Positions 1 through 13,549 of a stretch of 35,838 nt of DNA are shown here, piece by piece. The stretch spans positions 1-35,838 of the forward strand of contig CACIKJ010000006.1 in NCBI GenBank assembly GCA_902587215.1, read 5' to 3'. This stretch comes from an uncultured Pelagibacteraceae bacterium. GTDB lineage: Bacteria; Pseudomonadota; Alphaproteobacteria; Pelagibacterales; Pelagibacteraceae. Position 1 is the stretch's first letter. Each line of letters begins with the position of its first letter. The position numbers and the translations under genes are program-made. The notes beneath the pieces are model-generated. The model did no database searches. It was given only the letters and a program-made list of their open reading frames with translations, and was not told the origin of the DNA.

Positions 1-399
1 TGTCAGTTCTCCTGAGCCAACTTTAAAAATTTTTAATCTAATTTCTTTTTCTAAGATGTCAGCAGATTTAAAAGAAAAAGGTGTGCATAGATAATCGACA
101 TTCTTTTTTTCACAATATTTTTTTAAATATTTATGTTCTTTAATTGAAAGATTTGTCCTCTTTAGTGTATCATATAAACTTTCAGAAAAATTATTAGATT
201 TTGGAGTATACTTCAACATTTCATCTTCTAAAACATGGAATTGAAATTTTACGGCTGAGACACCTGCTTCTACAGCTTTATCAATCATTTTTTTTGCTAT
301 TTTTACATTGCCTTCGTGATTTATACATGCTTCAGCAATGATATAGGGTTTACAATTCTCGCTAATTACTTTTTTTGAAATTTTAAATTTTACCGACAT
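1..399 (-). CDS. neuB: N-acylneuraminate-family (sialic-type acid) synthase NeuB, partial
   Basis: These are the first 133 codons of a NeuB/LegI/PseI-type synthase; the rest lies beyond the left edge. The family condenses phosphoenolpyruvate with an N-acylated hexosamine to give a nine-carbon nonulosonic acid in the cytoplasm. Reading from the ATG at 399 shows the first barrel strand IIAEACINHEGN (residues 20-31), AVKFQFH (49-55) and VGSGELT at the edge, all hallmarks of the family. Family members are about 340-350 residues, so roughly 40% is visible. The start overlaps the end of the upstream neuA by 17 bases, which points to coupled translation. The sequence seen does not settle whether the product is neuraminic, legionaminic or pseudaminic acid. 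Confidence 0.9.
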   Translation of the reverse strand, partial: MSVKFKISKKVISENCKPYIIAEACINHEGNVKIAKKMIDKAVEAGVSAVKFQFHVLEDEMLKYTPKSNNFSESLYDTLKRTNLSIKEHKYLKKYCEKKNVDYLCTPFSFKSADILEKEIRLKIFKVGSGELT

Positions 400-1066
400 T
401 TTCCTTCATTAAAATTTTGCATATATTTAAATCTTCGAAATCATTAATATCTAAGGATTCATATTTGTTTGTTAAATAATAATTCCAATTTTTTTTTGGA
501 TATATTCTAAAATTATTAGCAAAAGCCTTTCTAGAAATAAAGTAAATTAGTCCATTTTCATATAAAAATGGTTTTCTATTTTGACTTAACTTCCTTACCT
601 TGTTGAGAGGACTGAAATATTTTTTCTCAAAGTAAGATATATTATCATTTTGTTTACTTACAGTTAAACAGTTGTTTAGCTTATTTTTAATACAATACCT
701 AACAAATTTTTTTATAGTATTAACTTTTCTTAAAGGAGATGTAACTTGAAGTATTACTATATTATCATAATTTTTATTCAATTTTGAGATAGTCTCTTTT
801 AGCGCTAAATCAGTTGTAGAATTATCTCTAGAATTTTTTTTACTACGCATTATTGAAGTTATTTTTAATTTTTTACCAATTTTTAATATCTTGCTAGAGT
901 CAGATGACAATAATATGTCTGAAAATAACCTTGTTTTTTTTGCTTGATTTATTGTAATTTCAATTAAAGTTTTATTATTTATTTTTCTTAAATTTTTATC
1001 TTTGACTCTTTTAGAACCTTTCCTTGCTGGAATAAAACATATAGTTTTACTTTTTCTCTTAAACAT
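383..1066 (-). CDS. neuA: CMP-nonulosonic acid synthetase (acylneuraminate cytidylyltransferase)
   Basis: This 227-residue enzyme activates a sialic-type acid with CTP to the CMP-sugar used by transferases. The N-terminal nucleotide-binding loop IPARKGSKRVKDKNL (residues 12-26) and LQVTSPLR (106-113) are diagnostic for the NeuA/LegF/PseF family, and the length is typical for single-domain members. It is transcribed leftward ahead of neuB with a 17-base overlap, so the two form one unit that makes and activates the same acid. A Gfo/Idh/MocA oxidoreductase diverges from it across only 36 bases. KdsB is a related family, but the RKGSKR loop favours NeuA over KdsB, and a genuine kdsB occurs at 11014. 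The exact acid is undetermined. Confidence 0.92.
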   Translation of the reverse strand: MFKRKSKTICFIPARKGSKRVKDKNLRKINNKTLIEITINQAKKTRLFSDILLSSDSSKILKIGKKLKITSIMRSKKNSRDNSTTDLALKETISKLNKNYDNIVILQVTSPLRKVNTIKKFVRYCIKNKLNNCLTVSKQNDNISYFEKKYFSPLNKVRKLSQNRKPFLYENGLIYFISRKAFANNFRIYPKKNWNYYLTNKYESLDINDFEDLNICKILMKENVGKI

Positions 1067-5291: not shown

Positions 5292-6200
5292 TCATTTAAA
5301 AATTTTGTCTAAACCATAAATTAAATCTGTTTTAGGTTTATAGCGTATTAATTTAAAAAGTTTGGATGAGTTTCCTGATCTTTTCATTACCTGAAATTCT
5401 TGAATTTTTTTTGGAACATTTACTTTAGAAATATTTGATTTCGATTTTAGTTTGTTTTTTATCATTCTAGCCAATGAGTAAATATCAAATTCCTTTCCTC
5501 TTGATGAATTTAAAATATGATACCCATTTACTTTTTTATTCAAAAGATCAAACACTTTTATGCAATCATCGATATAAGTAAAATCTCTTGTTTGTTTTCC
5601 ATTTCCATAAACAGTTATAGATCTATTTTTTCTTGCCTGGTCAATAAATCTAGGTATTACCATTCGATCATCCTGTCTTGGCCCATAAACATTGAAGAGT
5701 CTAACTGCAATAGAACTAATTTTAGTCTCATTATAGAAATATTTTAAATAAACCTCACATGCTCTTTTTGCCATAGAGTAGGCAGATGATGGTTGGATAA
5801 TAGCGCTTTCTTTCACATTACCTTTGTAATTTAGTTGACCATAAACACCGCTAGAAGATGCATAAATAATTTTTTTTAACTTATTTTTTTTTGCAGCAGA
5901 ACATATATTTTTAAGACCTTCAAATTCGCAATCCATAGTCTCAATATTCTTTTCTGATACAACATCTACACCAAGTATGGCCGCAAGATGGAATACAGAA
6001 GTACAATTTTTTGAATAATATTTTATTAAGTCGTAATCTCTGACATCTCCTTTAATCAAATTTATATTTTTATTTATTTTTTTTAATTTATTCCCTTGAG
6101 ACATGTTATCTATCACTGTTACATGATTATTTTTAGATAAATACTCAGCAAGATGGCTCCCGATAAAACCAGCGCCACCTGTAACCATTATTTTTTTCAT
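5292..6200 (-). CDS. NAD-dependent UDP-sugar epimerase (UDP-GlcNAc 4-epimerase-like)
   Basis: This 302-residue extended SDR has the nucleotide motif GGAGFIGSHL (residues 8-17), SSSGVYG (115-121) and the catalytic Tyr141/Lys145 pair in YSMAK. LFNVYGPRQ follows, as in GalE/WbpP-like 4-epimerases. It overlaps the upstream GT-B-like gene by the four bases ATGA (6197-6200) and precedes the WbpA-type dehydrogenase by 6 bases, so the pair could convert UDP-GlcNAc to UDP-GalNAc and then to UDP-GalNAcA, or the reverse order. A 4,6-dehydratase is a less likely alternative because the expected TDE motif is absent. Confidence 0.85.
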   Translation of the reverse strand: MKKIMVTGGAGFIGSHLAEYLSKNNHVTVIDNMSQGNKLKKINKNINLIKGDVRDYDLIKYYSKNCTSVFHLAAILGVDVVSEKNIETMDCEFEGLKNICSAAKKNKLKKIIYASSSGVYGQLNYKGNVKESAIIQPSSAYSMAKRACEVYLKYFYNETKISSIAVRLFNVYGPRQDDRMVIPRFIDQARKNRSITVYGNGKQTRDFTYIDDCIKVFDLLNKKVNGYHILNSSRGKEFDIYSLARMIKNKLKSKSNISKVNVPKKIQEFQVMKRSGNSSKLFKLIRYKPKTDLIYGLDKIFK

Positions 6201-7924
6201 ATATCGTTTTTTATATTGTAATTTTTAAATTTTAGATCCCTAAGTATTTTATGATTAATAATATGTCTATTATTATTTTTTAATTGAACTTTAAAATTGT
6301 CATAAAACGTTCCTTTGAAATTATTTTTGTTTCTCATTTTAGCATTAATTTTACTGTAGTAATCATTGGGTAATTTTCCAACAACTTTGATTTTGGGCAA
6401 AACATCAAAATTTATATTTGTTCCAAATCTTACAAACCAATAAATTTTTGCTCTAACTTTTTCATCCTTGCTGACTTTTTTAATGTTTTTTATATTTTTT
6501 AAAATTCTTATATATTTTTTTATGGATTTGGCGCTTCTAGAAATTTGAAAATGCTTATATCGAGTATCTGCTGTTGTAATGCAAGGTATCCCAATAGATG
6601 GGTATTCGTAACCACCAGATCCATGGCAAGCTACAACACATGATATTTTTTTTTCGAAAACTTTTAGTTGAGTATCATTATCTAAAAATTTAATATGTTT
6701 GTCCTGAGGATTGATAAACTTTTGAAAAACATTTTTTGTTTTTAAATCTGTTTTATAAAATATTTCGCTAGGATGCGCTTTTATGAGCCAATTTACAGAT
6801 TTTATATTTTTGATAATTTTTAGCGTTTCCTCGAACCAGTTATATGGAGTATTATATAAACTCCATTTTGATAAAAACATGCCATCATTCATTACATGTG
6901 GCAAGATCAATACGAATTTTTTTTTATTATTAAAAAAAGAATAATCTATTTTTTTTTTCTTTAGTTTAGAGACTTCTTTTGCCCACACGTCCTCTTTACC
7001 AATATCATTATCTTTTCTCTGCTGTGAGTATAATTTTTCAATTTTATTTTTATTCTGTGACATCACTTTTAAAAAATAGTTTTTAGTTTTTTTTGAGTAC
7101 TTTTCTTTATGACTATAACGATCAGAATATTTTTCATATATTCTAATTTTTATTCCTCTGAGAGCAGTACCGAATCTAGCAAAAACTTTAATTTTATTTT
7201 TTAAACATAAATTAAAAACCATTCTATTTGGCAAATACTGGCTCTCACCTATGACTAAACAGTCCACCTTATTCCTTGTACATATTTCTTTAAAAAAATC
7301 TAAAAAAAATAGTGATTTATAAAAATTAAGAATTTTAAAAAATTTTTCATTTTTATCATTTAAGTTTTTATTAAATCTAAAAAAACTTTCGAGTGCAATT
7401 TTCCCAACTTCTATATTGTTATATTTAAAATTATTATAATTTTTTTCATTTTGAAATTGTTTACAGATATAAATTGATTTAATGAAATAAATCATTTTTT
7501 TATAAAATGCTTGTCTTTCAATATAAATAAAGTTTTTAAAACCAAATTGATTTGCAATTAATTTATTTTTATAGTCCTTTTTATACATTAAACAAACTAC
7601 AGGTTTTCCAGTCAGTTTCTGCAGCTCTTTTGCAATTAAGAGATTTATAAGGACGTAGTCTATATGAGTTAAAAGCAGGTCAACTAGAATTACTTTATCA
7701 TTTTTGAATTTAGTTTGTTTAGAATAATAATTTTTTTTTAAATTTTTAAGAAAGTTTAAAAAATCTCCTTCCTTAAAATGGCCAGATTGTAACTTTTCAT
7801 AATTTAGAAGATAAAAGATATTTTTTATTTTTATTTCATTAAGTAAATTAACTCTATTTATTACATCAGCAATTAAAAGTTTTAGCTCAGTATAAAAGAA
7901 ATTGATTATATATATTATATCCAT
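6197..7924 (-). CDS. Putative capsule-type GT-B glycosyltransferase with HP motif
   Basis: This 575-residue protein has no signal peptide or clear membrane segment. I do not recognise a named family with certainty. It carries KAHPSEIFYK (His near residue 382) and about 50 residues later CHGSGGYEYPSIGIPCI (near 428-444). An HP motif followed by a Ser/Gly-rich motif and a conserved acidic-x-x-x-x-G-x-P is the layout of capsule-synthesis proteins such as KpsS/KpsC and of polysialyltransferases, which use CMP-Kdo or CMP-sialate. CMP-sugar makers flank it on both sides (neuA and kdsB). The first 350 residues are Lys/Asn/Phe-rich and match nothing I know. It is the first gene of the leftward unit and diverges from the gene at 8099 over 174 bases. 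Confidence 0.65.
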   Translation of the reverse strand: MDIIYIINFFYTELKLLIADVINRVNLLNEIKIKNIFYLLNYEKLQSGHFKEGDFLNFLKNLKKNYYSKQTKFKNDKVILVDLLLTHIDYVLINLLIAKELQKLTGKPVVCLMYKKDYKNKLIANQFGFKNFIYIERQAFYKKMIYFIKSIYICKQFQNEKNYNNFKYNNIEVGKIALESFFRFNKNLNDKNEKFFKILNFYKSLFFLDFFKEICTRNKVDCLVIGESQYLPNRMVFNLCLKNKIKVFARFGTALRGIKIRIYEKYSDRYSHKEKYSKKTKNYFLKVMSQNKNKIEKLYSQQRKDNDIGKEDVWAKEVSKLKKKKIDYSFFNNKKKFVLILPHVMNDGMFLSKWSLYNTPYNWFEETLKIIKNIKSVNWLIKAHPSEIFYKTDLKTKNVFQKFINPQDKHIKFLDNDTQLKVFEKKISCVVACHGSGGYEYPSIGIPCITTADTRYKHFQISRSAKSIKKYIRILKNIKNIKKVSKDEKVRAKIYWFVRFGTNINFDVLPKIKVVGKLPNDYYSKINAKMRNKNNFKGTFYDNFKVQLKNNNRHIINHKILRDLKFKNYNIKNDI

Positions 7925-7999
7925 TTAGTGCTTTAAGAGATAATTCTGCGGGTTAGGGTTATCATATAAATTATAAAAAAAAAGATAAAAAATTCTTTT

Positions 8000-8098: not shown

Positions 8099-9349
8099 AT
8101 GCAATTAGAAAAAAGTCTTTGTTTTATAAATTTTGATGGAGATTTGACTAGGATCTCCAGAAATAATAAAGAACTCAATAATGAGTTATCAAAGAAATTT
8201 AAAAAGATATATATACTCAATTTAAATAATTTAAGATTATTTTACAAAAGAAATATTTATTCTGTAAAAAAAAATAAGGGTTTAATTCCAAAAAATTTTA
8301 AAGTAATTGATATTAAAACTTCAGAAGATTTTATCAAATTTGCTCATAATAAAAAATTATTTATTATAATTAATGGGATATCTAAAAGTATAATAGATTT
8401 TAGAATTTTTTATTTATTTAAAAAAGTCAAAGCTAAAATAATAATGATTTCCATCACAGGTCAGTGGGGAACAAAAATTTTCACTGATGTTAAATTAAAA
8501 AATATATTTATAGGTTATAAACATGTGTTTTTAAAAAGTTTTTATTATCTTTGGAGAATTCTAACTATCCTAAATTTTTTTCCTAAAATACATATTTTAT
8601 TTGAGTCGAGTTCTGAAAATATAAAAATATTTAATAACGGAATTAGTAGAAAATTTGAGAGTTTATTTCCTTATTTCAAAATTTCATTATATCGAAAAAT
8701 AATCCATGTAAATAGTAAAGTATTTGACAAATTTAAGTTTGATTCGAAAAATAACATAGCTAATAGGAATAAGAAATATATTCTGTATATAGATAGTCCA
8801 ATTGAATCTGAAGGAAGAATTCAAAGAGAAGGATTAGTAAGTCAGGAAACAAAGAAAGAATATTATAAAAATTTATTTTCTGCCTTAAACCATTTGTCTA
8901 ATAAATTTAACCAGAAAATAATTGTATCACTACATCCAAGTTCAATTCAATCATTTGGTAAAATAAAAAAATTATTCAAGAACAATTCAAATGATATAAG
9001 TGTTTCAAAAAAAAGAACTGTCGATCTAATTAAAGACTCAAATATTGTTTTATTTAGTATATCATCTGCCATACTCAGTGCAGTAGTGATGAAAAAAAAA
9101 ATAATTAGTTTAAAATCAAAACACTTTGGAGAATATAACCTCAAAATAAACCAAAAGAATACTCAAGGGATTAATTGTCCATCGATTGATATCGATAAAA
9201 AAATAAGTATTTCAAAAAAAGAATTAGAGATTGAATTTAAAAAATCAATCTCTTCATACCAAAAACTAATTAATGAAAGATTAACAAATAATACAAATAA
9301 GCCCTCATATATTGAAATTGTTGAAACTTTAAAAAATGAAATGATTTAA
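8099..9349 (+). CDS. Putative GT-B glycosyltransferase with HP and SS motifs (unrecognised family)
   Basis: This 416-residue protein is probably cytoplasmic and not of a family I can name. The C-terminal half looks like a GT-B nucleotide-sugar domain: LYIDSPIESEGR (from about 226), VSLHPSSIQSFG with His279, then LFSISSAILSAVVMKKKIISL (about 317-337). A His-Pro motif followed by a Ser-Ser motif and an S/H-F-G-E-Y stretch is reminiscent of polysialyltransferase and surface-carbohydrate enzymes that take CMP-sugars. The N-terminal 200 residues show no motif known to me. It is the first gene of a rightward run leading into the kds genes, 58 bases before the radical SAM gene. The glycosyltransferase call rests on motif layout and context. 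Confidence 0.6.
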   Translation: MQLEKSLCFINFDGDLTRISRNNKELNNELSKKFKKIYILNLNNLRLFYKRNIYSVKKNKGLIPKNFKVIDIKTSEDFIKFAHNKKLFIIINGISKSIIDFRIFYLFKKVKAKIIMISITGQWGTKIFTDVKLKNIFIGYKHVFLKSFYYLWRILTILNFFPKIHILFESSSENIKIFNNGISRKFESLFPYFKISLYRKIIHVNSKVFDKFKFDSKNNIANRNKKYILYIDSPIESEGRIQREGLVSQETKKEYYKNLFSALNHLSNKFNQKIIVSLHPSSIQSFGKIKKLFKNNSNDISVSKKRTVDLIKDSNIVLFSISSAILSAVVMKKKIISLKSKHFGEYNLKINQKNTQGINCPSIDIDKKISISKKELEIEFKKSISSYQKLINERLTNNTNKPSYIEIVETLKNEMI

Positions 9350-9407: not shown

Positions 9408-10271
9408 ATGCTTGAATCATCAAACTCAAAATCAATACAAAACACACTCAAATTTATAAAAGGAACAAAAATTCCATTACCTTCCTTAGTAGAAATAAGC
9501 AATTCGGGAATGTGCAATAGGAAGTGTTCTTTTTGTCCAAGAAGTGCTCCAGACTATCCAGATATTAACGAATTCATTAGTGATGAGTTACATACTAAAT
9601 TATGTAGTCAACTATCCGAGCATGGATTTGAAGGTGTATATGCATACGCTGGGTTTAATGAGCCCTTACTTCACAAAAAAATTTATAATCATATCAAAGA
9701 AGCAAAAGAATTATTACCTAAGGCAAGAATTGAAGTAATTACAAATGGAGATGTTCTAAATGTAACTAGAATAAAAAAATTAATTGACTCTGGTTTAACT
9801 ACTTTGTCAATAAGTGCATATGATGGACCTGATCAAGCAGATAAATTTCAAAAAATGTGTGAGGATGCAAATTTAAGTGAGCGTCAATTTATTGTTAGGC
9901 ATAGATATCTGCCGCCGGAAGAAAACTTTGGTATTAACTTAACTAATAGAGGTGGCATGATGGAGAATGCGGGTGTCAAGATTAAGACATTGAAAAAATC
10001 ACTTTGCCAAAGTTGTTTTTACCCAAGTTATGATTTTTTTGTTGATTACAATGGAGATATTTTAATGTGCTCCCACGATTGGGCAAAAAAAAATATTTTA
10101 GGCAATCTAACTAAACAAAATTTTATTGAAATTTGGACTTCAGAAAAAGCAAAAATTTCTAGGAAAAATCTTTATGAAGCTAAAAGAAATTTTGCACCTT
10201 GCAATGTTTGTGATGCCAAAGGAGATCAAATAGGCTCTGAACATATAAATGCTTGGAAAAAATTATATTAG
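9408..10271 (+). CDS. Radical SAM/SPASM domain protein
   Basis: This 287-residue protein has the radical SAM cluster motif CxxxCxxC at Cys36, Cys40 and Cys43 (GMCNRKCSFCPRS) and a C-terminal SPASM/twitch-like domain. The latter has Cys200, Cys203, Cys221, Cys265 and Cys268, with DYNGDILMCSHDW around 213-225. Members use S-adenosylmethionine and a 4Fe-4S cluster to start radical chemistry, with auxiliary clusters in the SPASM part. No peptide precursor gene is nearby, so a RiPP-maturase role is not suggested; a carbohydrate substrate is more plausible in this setting (inference). It is followed after 2 bases by an SDR and then kdsB, kdsA and an aldolase, all on one strand. The specific reaction is unknown. 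Confidence 0.88.
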   Translation: MLESSNSKSIQNTLKFIKGTKIPLPSLVEISNSGMCNRKCSFCPRSAPDYPDINEFISDELHTKLCSQLSEHGFEGVYAYAGFNEPLLHKKIYNHIKEAKELLPKARIEVITNGDVLNVTRIKKLIDSGLTTLSISAYDGPDQADKFQKMCEDANLSERQFIVRHRYLPPEENFGINLTNRGGMMENAGVKIKTLKKSLCQSCFYPSYDFFVDYNGDILMCSHDWAKKNILGNLTKQNFIEIWTSEKAKISRKNLYEAKRNFAPCNVCDAKGDQIGSEHINAWKKLY

Positions 10272-10273
10272 AA

Positions 10274-10984
10274 ATGCAAAAAAAAATATTAATTCTAGGT
10301 GCAAGCTCAGATATTGGCTTTGAAACAGTAAAATATTTTTTAAAAAATAACTGGTCAGTCACAGCTCATTTTAACAAAAATAAAATCAAACTAAACAAAC
10401 TTAAAAATAAAAAATTGGATTTATTTAAATTTAATCTTACCAAAATTAATTCGTTTAAAAAATATTTAGACAAAAATTCTAAAGATTTAAGTAACTTCGA
10501 TGCATTTGTAAGTTTGACTGGATATATGAAAATAAAAAAATTTGATAAAATTTTACCATCTGACTTAATTGATCATATAAATGCAAATTATATTTCAAAT
10601 TTATTAATAATACAAAAAATTTTAAAAAATATGAAAAAAAATAAATGGGGAAGAATTTTGCTGGCTTCAAGTATTGGTACAAAATTTGGAGGGGGAAATT
10701 TAACAATGGCATACTCAATTTCAAAATATCTTAATGAATTTTTCCCATCGGCATATAAAGAATATTATAAGTATAATATTATGATCAATGCATTAAAAAT
10801 TGGGGTGACAGATACAAAATTACACTCGAAAGATAAAAGTAAGAATATGATAAAAAGAATAAAATTAATTCCTACCAACAAAATGGCTTCTACTAAACAA
10901 GTTGCAGAATATATATATTTTCTTTGTTCAGATAAGAATGCTTTAATCACAAATGAAGTAATAAATATTTCAGGTGGAGAATAG
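10274..10984 (+). CDS. Short-chain dehydrogenase/reductase
   Basis: This classical SDR of 236 residues is read from the ATG at 10274, 2 bases after the radical SAM stop. An in-frame ATG at 10253 would add seven residues inside the upstream gene and spoil the usual start just ahead of the first beta strand. The cofactor motif is LGASSDIGFE (Gly9, Gly15), Ser132/Ser133 sit in LASSIG, the catalytic pair is Tyr147/Lys151 in YSISK, and the C-terminus NISGGE is typical. It probably oxidises or reduces a hydroxyl or keto group on a sugar. Its place between the radical SAM gene and kdsB suggests it acts on the same octulosonate-type sugar or its precursor, which I cannot verify. Confidence 0.85.
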   Translation: MQKKILILGASSDIGFETVKYFLKNNWSVTAHFNKNKIKLNKLKNKKLDLFKFNLTKINSFKKYLDKNSKDLSNFDAFVSLTGYMKIKKFDKILPSDLIDHINANYISNLLIIQKILKNMKKNKWGRILLASSIGTKFGGGNLTMAYSISKYLNEFFPSAYKEYYKYNIMINALKIGVTDTKLHSKDKSKNMIKRIKLIPTNKMASTKQVAEYIYFLCSDKNALITNEVINISGGE

Positions 10985-11013: not shown

Positions 11014-11736
11014 ATGAAATTTAATGTTTTATTAGTTATACCAGCACGTTACGGTTCGACTAGGCTACCTGGAAAGCCTTTAAAAAAAATTGGTAATAAA
11101 ACTATGATACAGCGAGTATACGATCAGGCCAAAAAAGTAAATTGCTCAAAAACTATAGTTGCTACAGATGATAAAAGAATATTTAATCACTGTATTAGAA
11201 ATAATATGACTTGTGTGATGACAAAAAAAACTCATCAAACAGGCTCAGATAGAATATCGGAAGTTTCAAAAAAATATAAATATAATTGGGTTTTAAATTT
11301 GCAAGGAGATGAGCCTCTTATAAATGTTAGTGATGTTAAAAATCTAATTAAAAAAAGTATATTATTTTATAAAAAACAAAAATTTTCTGTTTCAACATTG
11401 TATTTTAAAAAAAAGGAAACAAATATACATAATCCAAATGAGGCTAGACTTCTTATCAACAAGAATAATGAAGTAATAATTTTTACAAGAAAAAAAATTA
11501 CCAACAATTCTAAAGAAAATATGTATTTAAAACATATAGGAATTTTTCTATATAGAAAAAATTTTTTGCATAAATTTTCAAAATTAAAAGAAAGATTTTT
11601 AGAAAAGGATCAAAGATTAGAGCAGTTAAGAGTTTTAGAGAATGGATATAAAATAATTGCATTTAGAGCAAAAAACCTTACCAGGGGGGTTGATAGTCAT
11701 AAAGATTTGTGCAATATTCGAAAAAAATTCAAATGA
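11014..11736 (+). CDS. kdsB: 3-deoxy-manno-octulosonate cytidylyltransferase (CMP-Kdo synthetase)
   Basis: At 240 residues this is close to the KdsB family length of about 245-250. It catalyses CTP plus Kdo to CMP-Kdo, the activated donor for lipid A core or capsule. Motifs are VIPARYGSTRLPGKPL (residues 8-23), NLQGDEPLI, KHIGIFLYRK and LEQLRVLENG, all characteristic of KdsB. The stop overlaps the kdsA start in an ATGA (11733-11736), so the two are translationally coupled. Since kds genes are normally housekeeping in Gram-negative bacteria, a copy inside a variable locus may serve a capsule or a Kdo variant; whether another copy exists in the genome is not visible here. Confidence 0.92.
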   Translation: MKFNVLLVIPARYGSTRLPGKPLKKIGNKTMIQRVYDQAKKVNCSKTIVATDDKRIFNHCIRNNMTCVMTKKTHQTGSDRISEVSKKYKYNWVLNLQGDEPLINVSDVKNLIKKSILFYKKQKFSVSTLYFKKKETNIHNPNEARLLINKNNEVIIFTRKKITNNSKENMYLKHIGIFLYRKNFLHKFSKLKERFLEKDQRLEQLRVLENGYKIIAFRAKNLTRGVDSHKDLCNIRKKFK

Positions 11737-12527
11737 AAAAATTACAAGTAATTGCGGGAAATTGTGTTCTTGAAAGTCTAAAAACTAGCGTTGAAACCTC
11801 AAGTTTTTTGAAAGAAATGTCAGAAAAATTTAATTTTGAACTTATTTACAAAAGTTCTTATAAAAAAGATAATCGTTCTTCCTCAGATTTTTTTAGCACG
11901 TTAGGACATGATGAATGTGCAGATATATTTTCAGAGTTAAAAAAAAAAAAATATAAAATTATAACTGATGTGCATAATTTATATGAACTTAACCTTGAAT
12001 TATTTAAATTTATTGATGTGATACAAATACCTGCTTATCTTTGTATGCAAACTGAACTTACAACAGAAATAGCTAAAACAGGCAAAAAAATAAATGTAAA
12101 AAAGGGACAGTTCTTGTCACCAAATGATGTAGAAAAAATTGTAATGAAAATTGAAAGCGCAGGTAATAATGACATAACCATTACAGAACGGGGGACATGT
12201 TTTGGTTATAGAGATTTGATGGTTGACCCTAGATCTTTTTTGATACTTAGAAGGTTAAACTATCCAGTATTTTTCGATGTTGGACACTCAGTAAGAAAAT
12301 ACGGAATTCCTTCATCAAATACAATAGACGGTGGCCAAAAAGAATTTTGCGAAACTTATGCAAGATCTGCTATTTCTAATTTTGTTGATGGGCTATTTAT
12401 AGAGGTGCATCCTAATCCAAAAAGCGCAAAGTGTGACGCTGCAACACAATTTTCTTTTAATGAGTTTGAAGATTTAATGACCAATATTAAACCATTATGG
12501 GATTTTGTTAATAATAAATCTAATTAA
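11733..12527 (+). CDS. kdsA: 3-deoxy-8-phosphooctulonate synthase, metal-dependent type
   Basis: This is 264 residues from the ATG at 11733; a start at 11709 would lie inside kdsB and add eight residues without support. KdsA condenses phosphoenolpyruvate with D-arabinose 5-phosphate to Kdo 8-phosphate. Seen here: AGNCVLES with Cys11, KDNRSS, ITDVH, KTGKKINVKKGQF, ERGTCFGY, FDVGHSV, FIEVHPNP and KCDAATQ. Cys11, the His of GHS, the Glu of IEVH and the Asp of CDA match the four metal ligands of the Aquifex-type (metal-dependent) class, unlike the Asn of E. coli KdsA. The family's RGxG after NRSS is replaced by STLG, a real divergence near the aldose site. A run of 13 A lies at 11939-11951. Confidence 0.92.
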   Translation: MKKLQVIAGNCVLESLKTSVETSSFLKEMSEKFNFELIYKSSYKKDNRSSSDFFSTLGHDECADIFSELKKKKYKIITDVHNLYELNLELFKFIDVIQIPAYLCMQTELTTEIAKTGKKINVKKGQFLSPNDVEKIVMKIESAGNNDITITERGTCFGYRDLMVDPRSFLILRRLNYPVFFDVGHSVRKYGIPSSNTIDGGQKEFCETYARSAISNFVDGLFIEVHPNPKSAKCDAATQFSFNEFEDLMTNIKPLWDFVNNKSN

Positions 12528-12541
12528 GATAAATAAAAATT

Positions 12542-13549
12542 ATGAAAATTTTTCTAGATACAATTGACCTAGAAGAAATTAAAAAATACAGTGAAATATT
12601 TGATATTGCAGGAATAACTACAAATCCTAACCTTGCAAGACGTTTTGGTATGTCAGATGATATAGAAATGGTAAGGGAAATAGGAAAAGTTATTGGAAAA
12701 CAAAAAGAAATTCACGTTGAGGCTTTTGGAGAAAATGCAAAGGAAATAATAGAAAATTCTAAAAGAATTAGAAAAAATTGTTCAAATTTTAATTTAGTTT
12801 TTAAAATACCTTTTTCAGAAGAAGGAGTTAAGGCTTCAAAATATTTAATTAGCAAAAAATATTCAACAAATTTACATTTAATTTTTTCAATAAGCCAAGC
12901 TATAATTTCGTCGTCTATTAATTCAAACTATATCTGCCCTTTGATAGGTAGATTAGATGACATAGGACACAACGCAATAGATAATTTAAATAAAATAATA
13001 AAATCATTTAAATTAAATAACTCAAAAACTCTAGTAATGGGTTCAAGTGTTAGAAATCTAAACCATGTAATTGATTGCTATCAAATAGGAGTAGACGCAG
13101 TAACAATTCCAATGAAAGTAATAAAAGAGATGTTTAACCACCCTCTTACAGACACTGGTTTTAAATTATTTAGAAAAGATCTTAATCAGATGAGGCAAAT
13201 ATCCTCTATTAATTTTAATAAAAATCTATTGATAGATTCAAACAAAACTCTGTTTGAAACTCTTGTAACCTTGCAAAAACACAAAGGAGCAGCTGTTGCC
13301 GTAAGTAAAAATAATAAATTAGCAGGGATTTTTACTACTGGTGACTTAAATAGACTAATTAAAACAAAGAAAAAATTTAATTATAACGACAAGATAATAA
13401 ATTTTATTACAAAAAATCCGTACTCAGTTGATATCACTGACAAAGTTGAAGTTATTACTAATTTAGTAAAAAAATATAACCTAGGTCAGTTTGTAGTGCT
13501 AGATCAAGATAGAGTTCTGGGTATTCTTGATGTAAAAGATTTACTTTAA
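12542..13549 (+). CDS. FSA/TalC-type aldolase fused to a KdsD-like CBS domain pair
   Basis: This 335-residue fusion starts 14 bases after kdsA. Residues 1-215 form a small transaldolase/fructose-6-phosphate aldolase barrel: FLDT with Asp6, GITTNPN (24-30), FKIPFSEEG with the probable Schiff-base Lys88, and VTIPMKVIKEM (187-197). Residues about 225-335 form two CBS repeats, with GIFTTGDLNRLI (262-273) and VLGILDVKDLL at the end. These resemble the CBS tail of arabinose-5-phosphate isomerase KdsD (GIFTDGDLRR, LGVLHMHDLL). Plain FSA/TalC proteins are about 210-220 residues and lack CBS. I infer an alternative route to the KdsA aldose substrate, possibly glycolaldehyde plus glyceraldehyde 3-phosphate; transaldolase activity for another sugar is the alternative. 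Confidence 0.87.
   Translation: MKIFLDTIDLEEIKKYSEIFDIAGITTNPNLARRFGMSDDIEMVREIGKVIGKQKEIHVEAFGENAKEIIENSKRIRKNCSNFNLVFKIPFSEEGVKASKYLISKKYSTNLHLIFSISQAIISSSINSNYICPLIGRLDDIGHNAIDNLNKIIKSFKLNNSKTLVMGSSVRNLNHVIDCYQIGVDAVTIPMKVIKEMFNHPLTDTGFKLFRKDLNQMRQISSINFNKNLLIDSNKTLFETLVTLQKHKGAAVAVSKNNKLAGIFTTGDLNRLIKTKKKFNYNDKIINFITKNPYSVDITDKVEVITNLVKKYNLGQFVVLDQDRVLGILDVKDLL

Follow-up and report, generated by a model that had tools for sequence, protein, structure and literature searches.

What does an aldolase barrel joined to a pair of CBS repeats do directly behind kdsB and kdsA in a genome of the Pelagibacteraceae? The question is raised by an open reading frame in the window, the stretch of 35,838 nucleotides analysed here, which is contig C6 of an assembly (G000) of 44 contigs with 60% completeness. 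The same frame occurs in three other Pelagibacteraceae assemblies, at the loci L032, L033 and L034 of the genomes G061, G062 and G063. The features that concern us are listed below with their coordinates in the window.

9408..10271, + strand: radical SAM/SPASM protein (Pfam), shared with L032 and L033; the radical SAM/SPASM protein of L034 is another one
10253..10984, + strand: SDR oxidoreductase (Pfam adh_short); likewise directly 5' of kdsB2 in L032 and L033, but absent from that place in L034
11014..11736, + strand: kdsB2, cytidylyltransferase of the CMP-Kdo synthetase type (NF003952, 234.4 bits, above the cut-off of 193)
11733..12527, + strand: kdsA2, divergent KDO8P-synthase paralogue with an altered acceptor site (NF003543 and TIGR01362 scores, residues; Cys11 as in metal-type enzymes)
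12542..13549, + strand: aldolase-CBS fusion, 335 aa from ATG to stop; same frame in L032, L033 and L034
12542..13189, + strand: transaldolase/FSA-type barrel, residues 1-216 (Pfam TAL_FSA, structure model with PDB match, residue comparison)
12803-12805, + strand: codon of the Schiff-base Lys88
12875-12877, + strand: altered barrel residue His112 (residue comparison)
12935-12937, + strand: altered barrel residue Cys132 (residue comparison)
12941-12943, + strand: altered barrel residue Leu134 (residue comparison)
13043-13045, + strand: altered barrel residue Ser168 (residue comparison)
13214..13366, + strand: CBS repeat 1, about residues 225-275, with the GIFTTGDL motif (bounds set by eye; in L034, two stretches reach the Pfam cut-off for CBS)
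13403..13546, + strand: CBS repeat 2, residues 288-335, with GILDVKD (Pfam CBS 288-335)

The fusion is real, selected and rare, and it lies in an accessory ulosonic-acid operon. A preliminary description, made from the letters of the window, had read it as one frame with an FSA/TalC barrel followed by two CBS repeats, and this reading was borne out: Asp6, TTNP (residues 26-29), Lys88 in FKIPF, GIFTTGDL and LGILDVKDLL are all found, and Pfam assigns residues 3-224 to TAL_FSA (140.9 bits, cut-off 27), which places the barrel in the transaldolase/FSA family, and residues 288-335 to CBS (43.9 bits, cut-off 24). The AlphaFold model is confident for the barrel, from residue 1 to about 210, and its best PDB match is the transaldolase 1vpx, with an rmsd of 1.7 and a TM of 0.92 by target length; the model is poor in the CBS part, where the pLDDT block means are 28-54 from residue 221 on. 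The relatives in L032, L033 and L034 are 92%, 87% and 81% identical, all with 335 aa, and two CBS stretches pass Pfam in the last of these and one in the first. Strong purifying selection acts on both halves, with dN/dS against the window of about 0.03-0.07 (0.04-0.05 in the barrel half), ratios obtained with synonymous sites near saturation. Since the 335-aa frame recurs in three other assemblies and dN/dS is low, the fusion is no sequencing accident.

The start of kdsA2 overlaps the stop of kdsB2 and 14 bp separate kdsA2 from the fusion, a tight operon. It holds no SIS isomerase, in keeping with the position beside kdsA and kdsB that had been pointed out earlier. Besides its NF003952 match, KdsB2 scores at the TIGR00466 cut-off of 155.2 in one scan (155.2 bits) and just below it in another (154.7). 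The order kdsB-kdsA-fusion is the same in all four genomes. The window, L032 and L033 have the radical SAM and SDR genes in common, and in L034 the radical SAM gene is another one and the SDR is missing at this place; the surroundings differ in L034, and in L033 they differ further upstream. On the 3' side of the fusion, where an ABC transporter follows in the window, the genes differ between the window and L034, the two with sequence there. Some other frames of the window were scanned, and they include sugar-nucleotide enzymes as well as a second CMP-sugar synthetase; many more resemble glycosyltransferases and sugar epimerases by eye. Nonulosonic-acid type genes were also noticed near the cassette, namely a cytidylyltransferase nearest to PseF but under the PseF cut-off (window 383-1066, − strand) and a NeuB-family gene (L034:13820-14866, − strand). 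Two further frames of the window, of 416 aa (8099-9349, + strand) and 575 aa (6197-7924, − strand), are possibly glycosyltransferases of an unknown kind; neither has a Pfam match or a credible match in a PDB sequence search, and the predicted fold of the 416-aa one, upstream of the operon, is poor (mean pLDDT 49).

In a survey of 397 genomes of the order, the full-length fusion was present in two, that of the window and G212, taken as the genome of L034, and single-domain homologues reached E 1e-30 in 50 further genomes. A search of the same 397 with kdsA2 returned the identical two genomes at E 1e-85. As four genomes with the cassette are known, this co-occurrence of the fusion and KdsA2 speaks more for inheritance of a cassette than for repeated association. 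Across the phylum (398 genomes), E 1e-40 was passed by the window's own genome alone. On viral contigs, the best 80 of at least 535 relatives match at 31-37% and none of these 80 extends past residue 239 of the fusion, and the plasmid search gave no place covering 80% of it. The open-licence literature that was searched holds no report of a transaldolase-CBS fusion or its pathway, nor does any appear among the titles listed for SAR11 glycan regions and kdsA.

Does the fusion replace KdsD, as the preliminary description had suggested? That claim fails, as a SIS-type kdsD lies at another locus in all three of the other assemblies, whole in G061 and G063 and truncated in G062, where the contig ends, and a genome-wide replacement of KdsD was rejected on this account. 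An exonuclease-like gene precedes kdsD in all three, and by eye an lptC-like gene follows it in G061 and G063. In G000, the kpsF search matches nothing besides the fusion, an absence that carries little weight in a genome 60% complete. In three of the four genomes, the kdsA of the cassette is a second, divergent copy: G000, G061 and G063 also have a canonical KdsA, which scores 411-416 bits where the cassette KdsA scores 272-279, and in G062 the cassette KdsA is the sole copy found. A second full-length kdsB is found in G062 and G063, and in G000 and G061 the cassette kdsB is the only full-length one. The best explanation is that the cassette forms a second, accessory ulosonic-acid pathway, separate from the housekeeping Kdo pathway and not a replacement for it. 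As a side observation, G029 (same genus, 92% complete) gave no kpsF/kdsD match, no kdsA match and one kdsB match; Kdo synthesis is possibly incomplete in this SAR11 genome, unless the assembly has a gap there.

We then turned to the active site of the barrel. According to the excerpts of PMC13259622, Gln59, Thr109 and Tyr131 hold the catalytic water in E. coli FSA, and swapping such water-triad residues interconverts aldolase and transaldolase. The corresponding triad of the fusion is Glu60-His112-Leu134, against Gln-Thr-Tyr in FSA and Glu-Thr-Phe in transaldolases, and with respect to FSA it has Cys132 for Ala129 and Ser168 for Ala165. Like a TalC-type transaldolase it carries the Schiff-base Lys88 in a TAL_FSA barrel, by both the Pfam score and the model; of the transaldolase triad and the Ser of the SPF motif, the Glu is kept, but Thr, Ser and Phe have become His, Cys and Leu. 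Homologues were compared in 134 rows, corresponding to 112 distinct proteins because some genes were fetched twice: every row has Thr at position 112 and Ala at position 168, and 132 of them have Ser at position 132 and Phe at position 134, the rows L024 and L028 being out of register by one at these sites through a pairwise gap. The altered sites (60, 112, 132, 134 and 168) agree across the four fusion proteins, in which Lys88, Asp6, Asn28 and Glu60 are invariant, and Arg137 and Ser169 are retained, matching Arg134 and Ser166 of FSA. The score against the NCBIfam FSA model TIGR00875 (174.1 bits) falls below its cut-off of 245.95. By its signature residues, the fusion would thus be neither an FSA nor a standard transaldolase, nor is it a member of KdsD/KpsF.

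The FSA-type chemistry on glycolaldehyde that had been proposed for the barrel cannot be presumed for it, as the Tyr and Gln of FSA and the Phe and Thr of transaldolases are missing; loss of the FSA Tyr and of the transaldolase Phe and Thr could even leave it with weak or no aldolase activity. The proteins nearest to it in sequence, at 35-44%, come from the same order and are transaldolase-like. Single-domain homologues of this sister family were considered as relatives of the pathway and set aside, since the L215 locus, read whole, looks by eye like an ordinary housekeeping one; L003 and L022 give the same impression in their short flanks. Two open frames of 699 and 657 aa (L025:1414-3510 on contig C11 of G006, and one on contig C7 of G034) bear a transaldolase-like match; the L025 frame starts pntB-like by eye, and it appears that pntB and a transaldolase-like gene are run together.

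KdsA2 has changed on the acceptor side as well. It exceeds the cut-off of NF003543 (280.8 bits against 242) and stays under that of TIGR01362 (275.9 against 314). In E. coli numbering, A61D, F117Y, R120M, D123E, T201G, Q205R and G251A/P252A are found in all four KdsA2, so that the canonical acceptor site (KANRSS, R120, Q205) reads KDNRSS, Met and Arg; Asn62, Arg63 and Ser64 are retained. The comparison comprised 26 other KdsA (one from E. coli, 13 SAR11 housekeeping, 10 plasmid and two of the SAR11 type that we call KdsA3), after the row L090, a distant relative with 99 bits, had been dropped. R120, T201 and Q205 are kept in all 26, and KANR[ST]S, including Ala61, in the 24 other than KdsA3. 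Some of the changes are not peculiar to KdsA2, because F117Y and A61D recur in KdsA3 and F117Y also in one of the 10 plasmid KdsA. R120 of E. coli KdsA presumably binds the phosphate of arabinose 5-phosphate, from the neighbouring subunit. All metal residues checked are present in KdsA2, namely Cys at the position of N26, E239 and D250, which we take to be the metal residues of KDO8P synthase. The PEP-site residues K55, K60, K138, R168 and H202 are kept too (E. coli residues, with numbering from the excerpts of PMC6650799). In the modelling described in those excerpts, Asn57/Arg58 and Pro110/Phe112/Leu113 of the Neisseria enzyme lie near the arabinose 5-phosphate part of inhibitors; in our numbering they correspond to N62/R63 and P115/F117/L118 of E. 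coli. Since its acceptor site has changed, the acceptor of KdsA2 is possibly other than arabinose 5-phosphate, a point that counts against the preliminary description.

The CBS tail had been likened to that of KdsD, a resemblance that exists but is not specific. In the whole-protein scan, the best-scoring CBS-bearing NCBIfam model is KdsD (38.4 bits), and the weak PDB matches of the CBS part include three KdsD CBS pairs (3fna, 3k2v and 4o9k, E 0.002-0.015). Scored alone, however, the CBS part gives PrdR 39.0 against KdsD 37.9, and with the NCBIfam kpsF model the four fusion CBS parts obtain 28.4-38.1 bits, whereas 15 of 18 other non-KdsD CBS matches obtain 39-49. A profile built from the four parts scored best, among those compared, with a stand-alone SAR11 CBS protein from G013 (32.7 bits), and KdsD reached at most 21.7. 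A tree was computed from 28 CBS pairs. The rows of the four fusions group in it as a single clade with a long stem (1.91) and lie apart from the clade (86/90) that unites 13 of the 14 KpsF/KdsD rows. The AU test gave p 0.26 with the fusion CBS held together with all 14 KpsF/KdsD rows, p 0.315 with stand-alone CBS and a borderline p 0.047 with SAR11 KdsD alone. A specifically KdsD-like tail was therefore rejected as unproven. The CBS pairs of KdsD bind CMP-Kdo, and the pair of KpsF/KdsD is thought to sense a nucleotide or CMP-sugar end product and to throttle the enzyme.

KpsF is a capsule-linked isomerase that can coexist with KdsD, as stated in the excerpts of PMC10448790. Eleven plasmid regions, hand-picked from match lists (H126 for its KpsF label), were opened and the unannotated H80 was set aside; KpsF shares a cluster with kdsA or kdsB in five of the 10 hand-chosen annotated regions, and three further regions have kdsB-kdsA without a KpsF listed nearby in a gene table that is incomplete. 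Because KpsF coexists with KdsD and joins such clusters, a genome that keeps KdsD is compatible with a KpsF-like role of the fusion; the three pairs without KpsF suggest that an accessory operon can perhaps do without an acceptor source of its own. Within SAR11, G013 (L220:749-4933, contig C2) carries kdsA3, an overlapping 130-aa CBS gene, an HpcH/HpaI aldolase, two SDRs and kdsB, and G328 (L227:8364-11832, contig C7) carries kdsA3 with a CBS gene overlapping it, followed directly by a kdsB-like gene and then by a frame of 470 aa without Pfam match. By eye there is no SIS gene in either stretch, and no aldolase beside kdsA3-CBS-kdsB in the stretch read in G328, so that CBS without aldolase also occurs. 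KdsA3 was found in one of the 397 genomes (G328), G013 coming from a separate search. A 16-kb seawater record, NZ_CP061939.1, has a kdsA match (48.6% to KdsA3) with a CBS match close by at 6091-7995; it is labelled Bacillus velezensis, a label that may be wrong.

Could the fusion instead be an arabinose 5-phosphate aldolase that joins glycolaldehyde and glyceraldehyde 3-phosphate, so that a Kdo 8-phosphate synthase of the ordinary kind makes capsule-type Kdo? This is the idea of the preliminary description with KpsF put in the place of KdsD. The chemistry has a precedent, in agreement with that description: the excerpts of PMC9947464 and PMC6298115 report that E. coli FsaA makes arabinose 5-phosphate from these two compounds in vitro and in engineered E. 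coli. The place beside kdsA and kdsB and the Asn62, Arg63 and Ser64 kept in KdsA2 would agree with it. Nevertheless, we hold it to be unlikely, with Glu60/Leu134 standing where the FSA signature has Gln59/Tyr131, an altered acceptor site in KdsA2 and a housekeeping KdsD that should already supply this sugar. A transaldolase under CBS control, which adjusts pentose-phosphate intermediates (erythrose 4-phosphate, sedoheptulose 7-phosphate) for the pathway as a whole and does not make the KdsA acceptor directly, would account for Glu60, which is the transaldolase residue, for the top structural match and for nearest relatives that are transaldolase-like proteins of the same order in a housekeeping-looking locus. 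We give this little credence, as all four members have His, Cys and Leu for Thr, Ser and Phe at the site, contig C33 of the genome already carries a transaldolase-like gene, two genes after a pntB-like one, and the fusion is tightly linked to kdsA2 and kdsB2.

The altered triad could also belong to a degenerate, non-catalytic barrel, a scaffold in a protein that is mainly a CBS regulator of KdsA2 and KdsB2, like the stand-alone CBS proteins whose genes overlap kdsA3 in G013 and G328, the latter with no aldolase seen. Four invariant residues (Lys88, Asp6, Asn28 and Glu60) and the strong purifying selection on the barrel make this quite improbable.

We tentatively favour, with somewhat less than even confidence, a fusion that makes the acceptor of KdsA2 in an accessory ulosonic-acid operon, stands in for KpsF and is controlled by an end product through its CBS pair. 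The operon would be an accessory pathway for a surface glycan, with the fusion in the slot held by KpsF in some comparable operons. We infer that the class I barrel forms an aldose by aldol chemistry on Lys88; KdsA2 would condense that aldose with PEP, KdsB2 would activate the product with CTP, and the CBS pair may sense a nucleotide or CMP-sugar end product and throttle the aldolase. The aldose is probably phosphorylated, since Arg137 and Ser169 are kept. As the catalytic-water residues of the barrel and the acceptor residues of KdsA2 are changed in all four genomes, the acceptor is less likely to be arabinose 5-phosphate itself than a related compound that differs from it in chain length, configuration or phosphate position. 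Most likely, then, the fusion is KpsF-like in position and control, with different chemistry. The interpretation given in the preliminary description is partly supported: it stands as to the slot without SIS isomerase and the FSA precedent, and lacks support as to the presence of KdsD, the grouping of the CBS pair, the FSA residues and the acceptor site of KdsA2.

A bolder proposal, which we regard as possible though doubtful, is a new way of making a 3-deoxy-ulosonic acid other than Kdo. In a SAR11 surface-glycan island, a class I aldolase with a new active site, gated by CBS, would build the aldose acceptor, a re-tooled KdsA would add PEP and a KdsB paralogue would activate the product; a sister pathway would rely on an HpaI-like aldolase and on CBS as a protein of its own. 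If the favoured role is true, a route to an ulosonic-acid precursor would bypass the SIS isomerase, with the CBS regulator kept and the catalyst swapped, and it would bear on the diversification of surface sugars in SAR11, which is among the most abundant marine bacterial groups and whose surface glycans are exposed to phage. The aldolase and KdsA2 are a directly testable enzyme pair with matched active-site changes.

Among known systems, the TalC/FSA family (Pfam TAL_FSA; B. subtilis 3r8r, T. maritima 1vpx, E. coli FsaA) shares with the fusion the barrel fold, Lys88, Asp6, Asn28 and Arg137/Ser169, and transaldolases share Glu60. The fusion differs from that family in its C-terminal CBS pair, in a score under the NCBIfam FSA cut-off and in having His112, Cys132, Leu134 and Ser168 where the family has Thr, Ser/Ala, Phe/Tyr and Ala. 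KpsF/KdsD, a SIS domain with a CBS pair, resembles it in the slot beside kdsB/kdsA, the C-terminal CBS pair and a similar length; the fusion, in contrast, is without the SIS domain, has TAL_FSA and CBS as its only Pfam domains and meets the NCBIfam kpsF/KdsD models with its CBS end alone, and its CBS pair falls outside their clade (AU p 0.26 when grouped). The accessory capsule-type Kdo operons of alphaproteobacterial plasmids also place kdsA and kdsB among glycan genes, but their KdsA keeps KANRSS, Arg120 and Gln205, and KpsF takes the place of the aldolase. Within SAR11 itself, the kdsA3 cassettes of G013 and G328 share with the fusion cassette a divergent KdsA with KDxRSS, a CBS pair and kdsB, and in G013 an aldolase; unlike in the fusion cassette, CBS is a gene of its own there, the aldolase is of the HpcH/HpaI type or not seen, and KdsA3 (KDSRSS) keeps the Arg120 and Gln205 that KdsA2 has exchanged.
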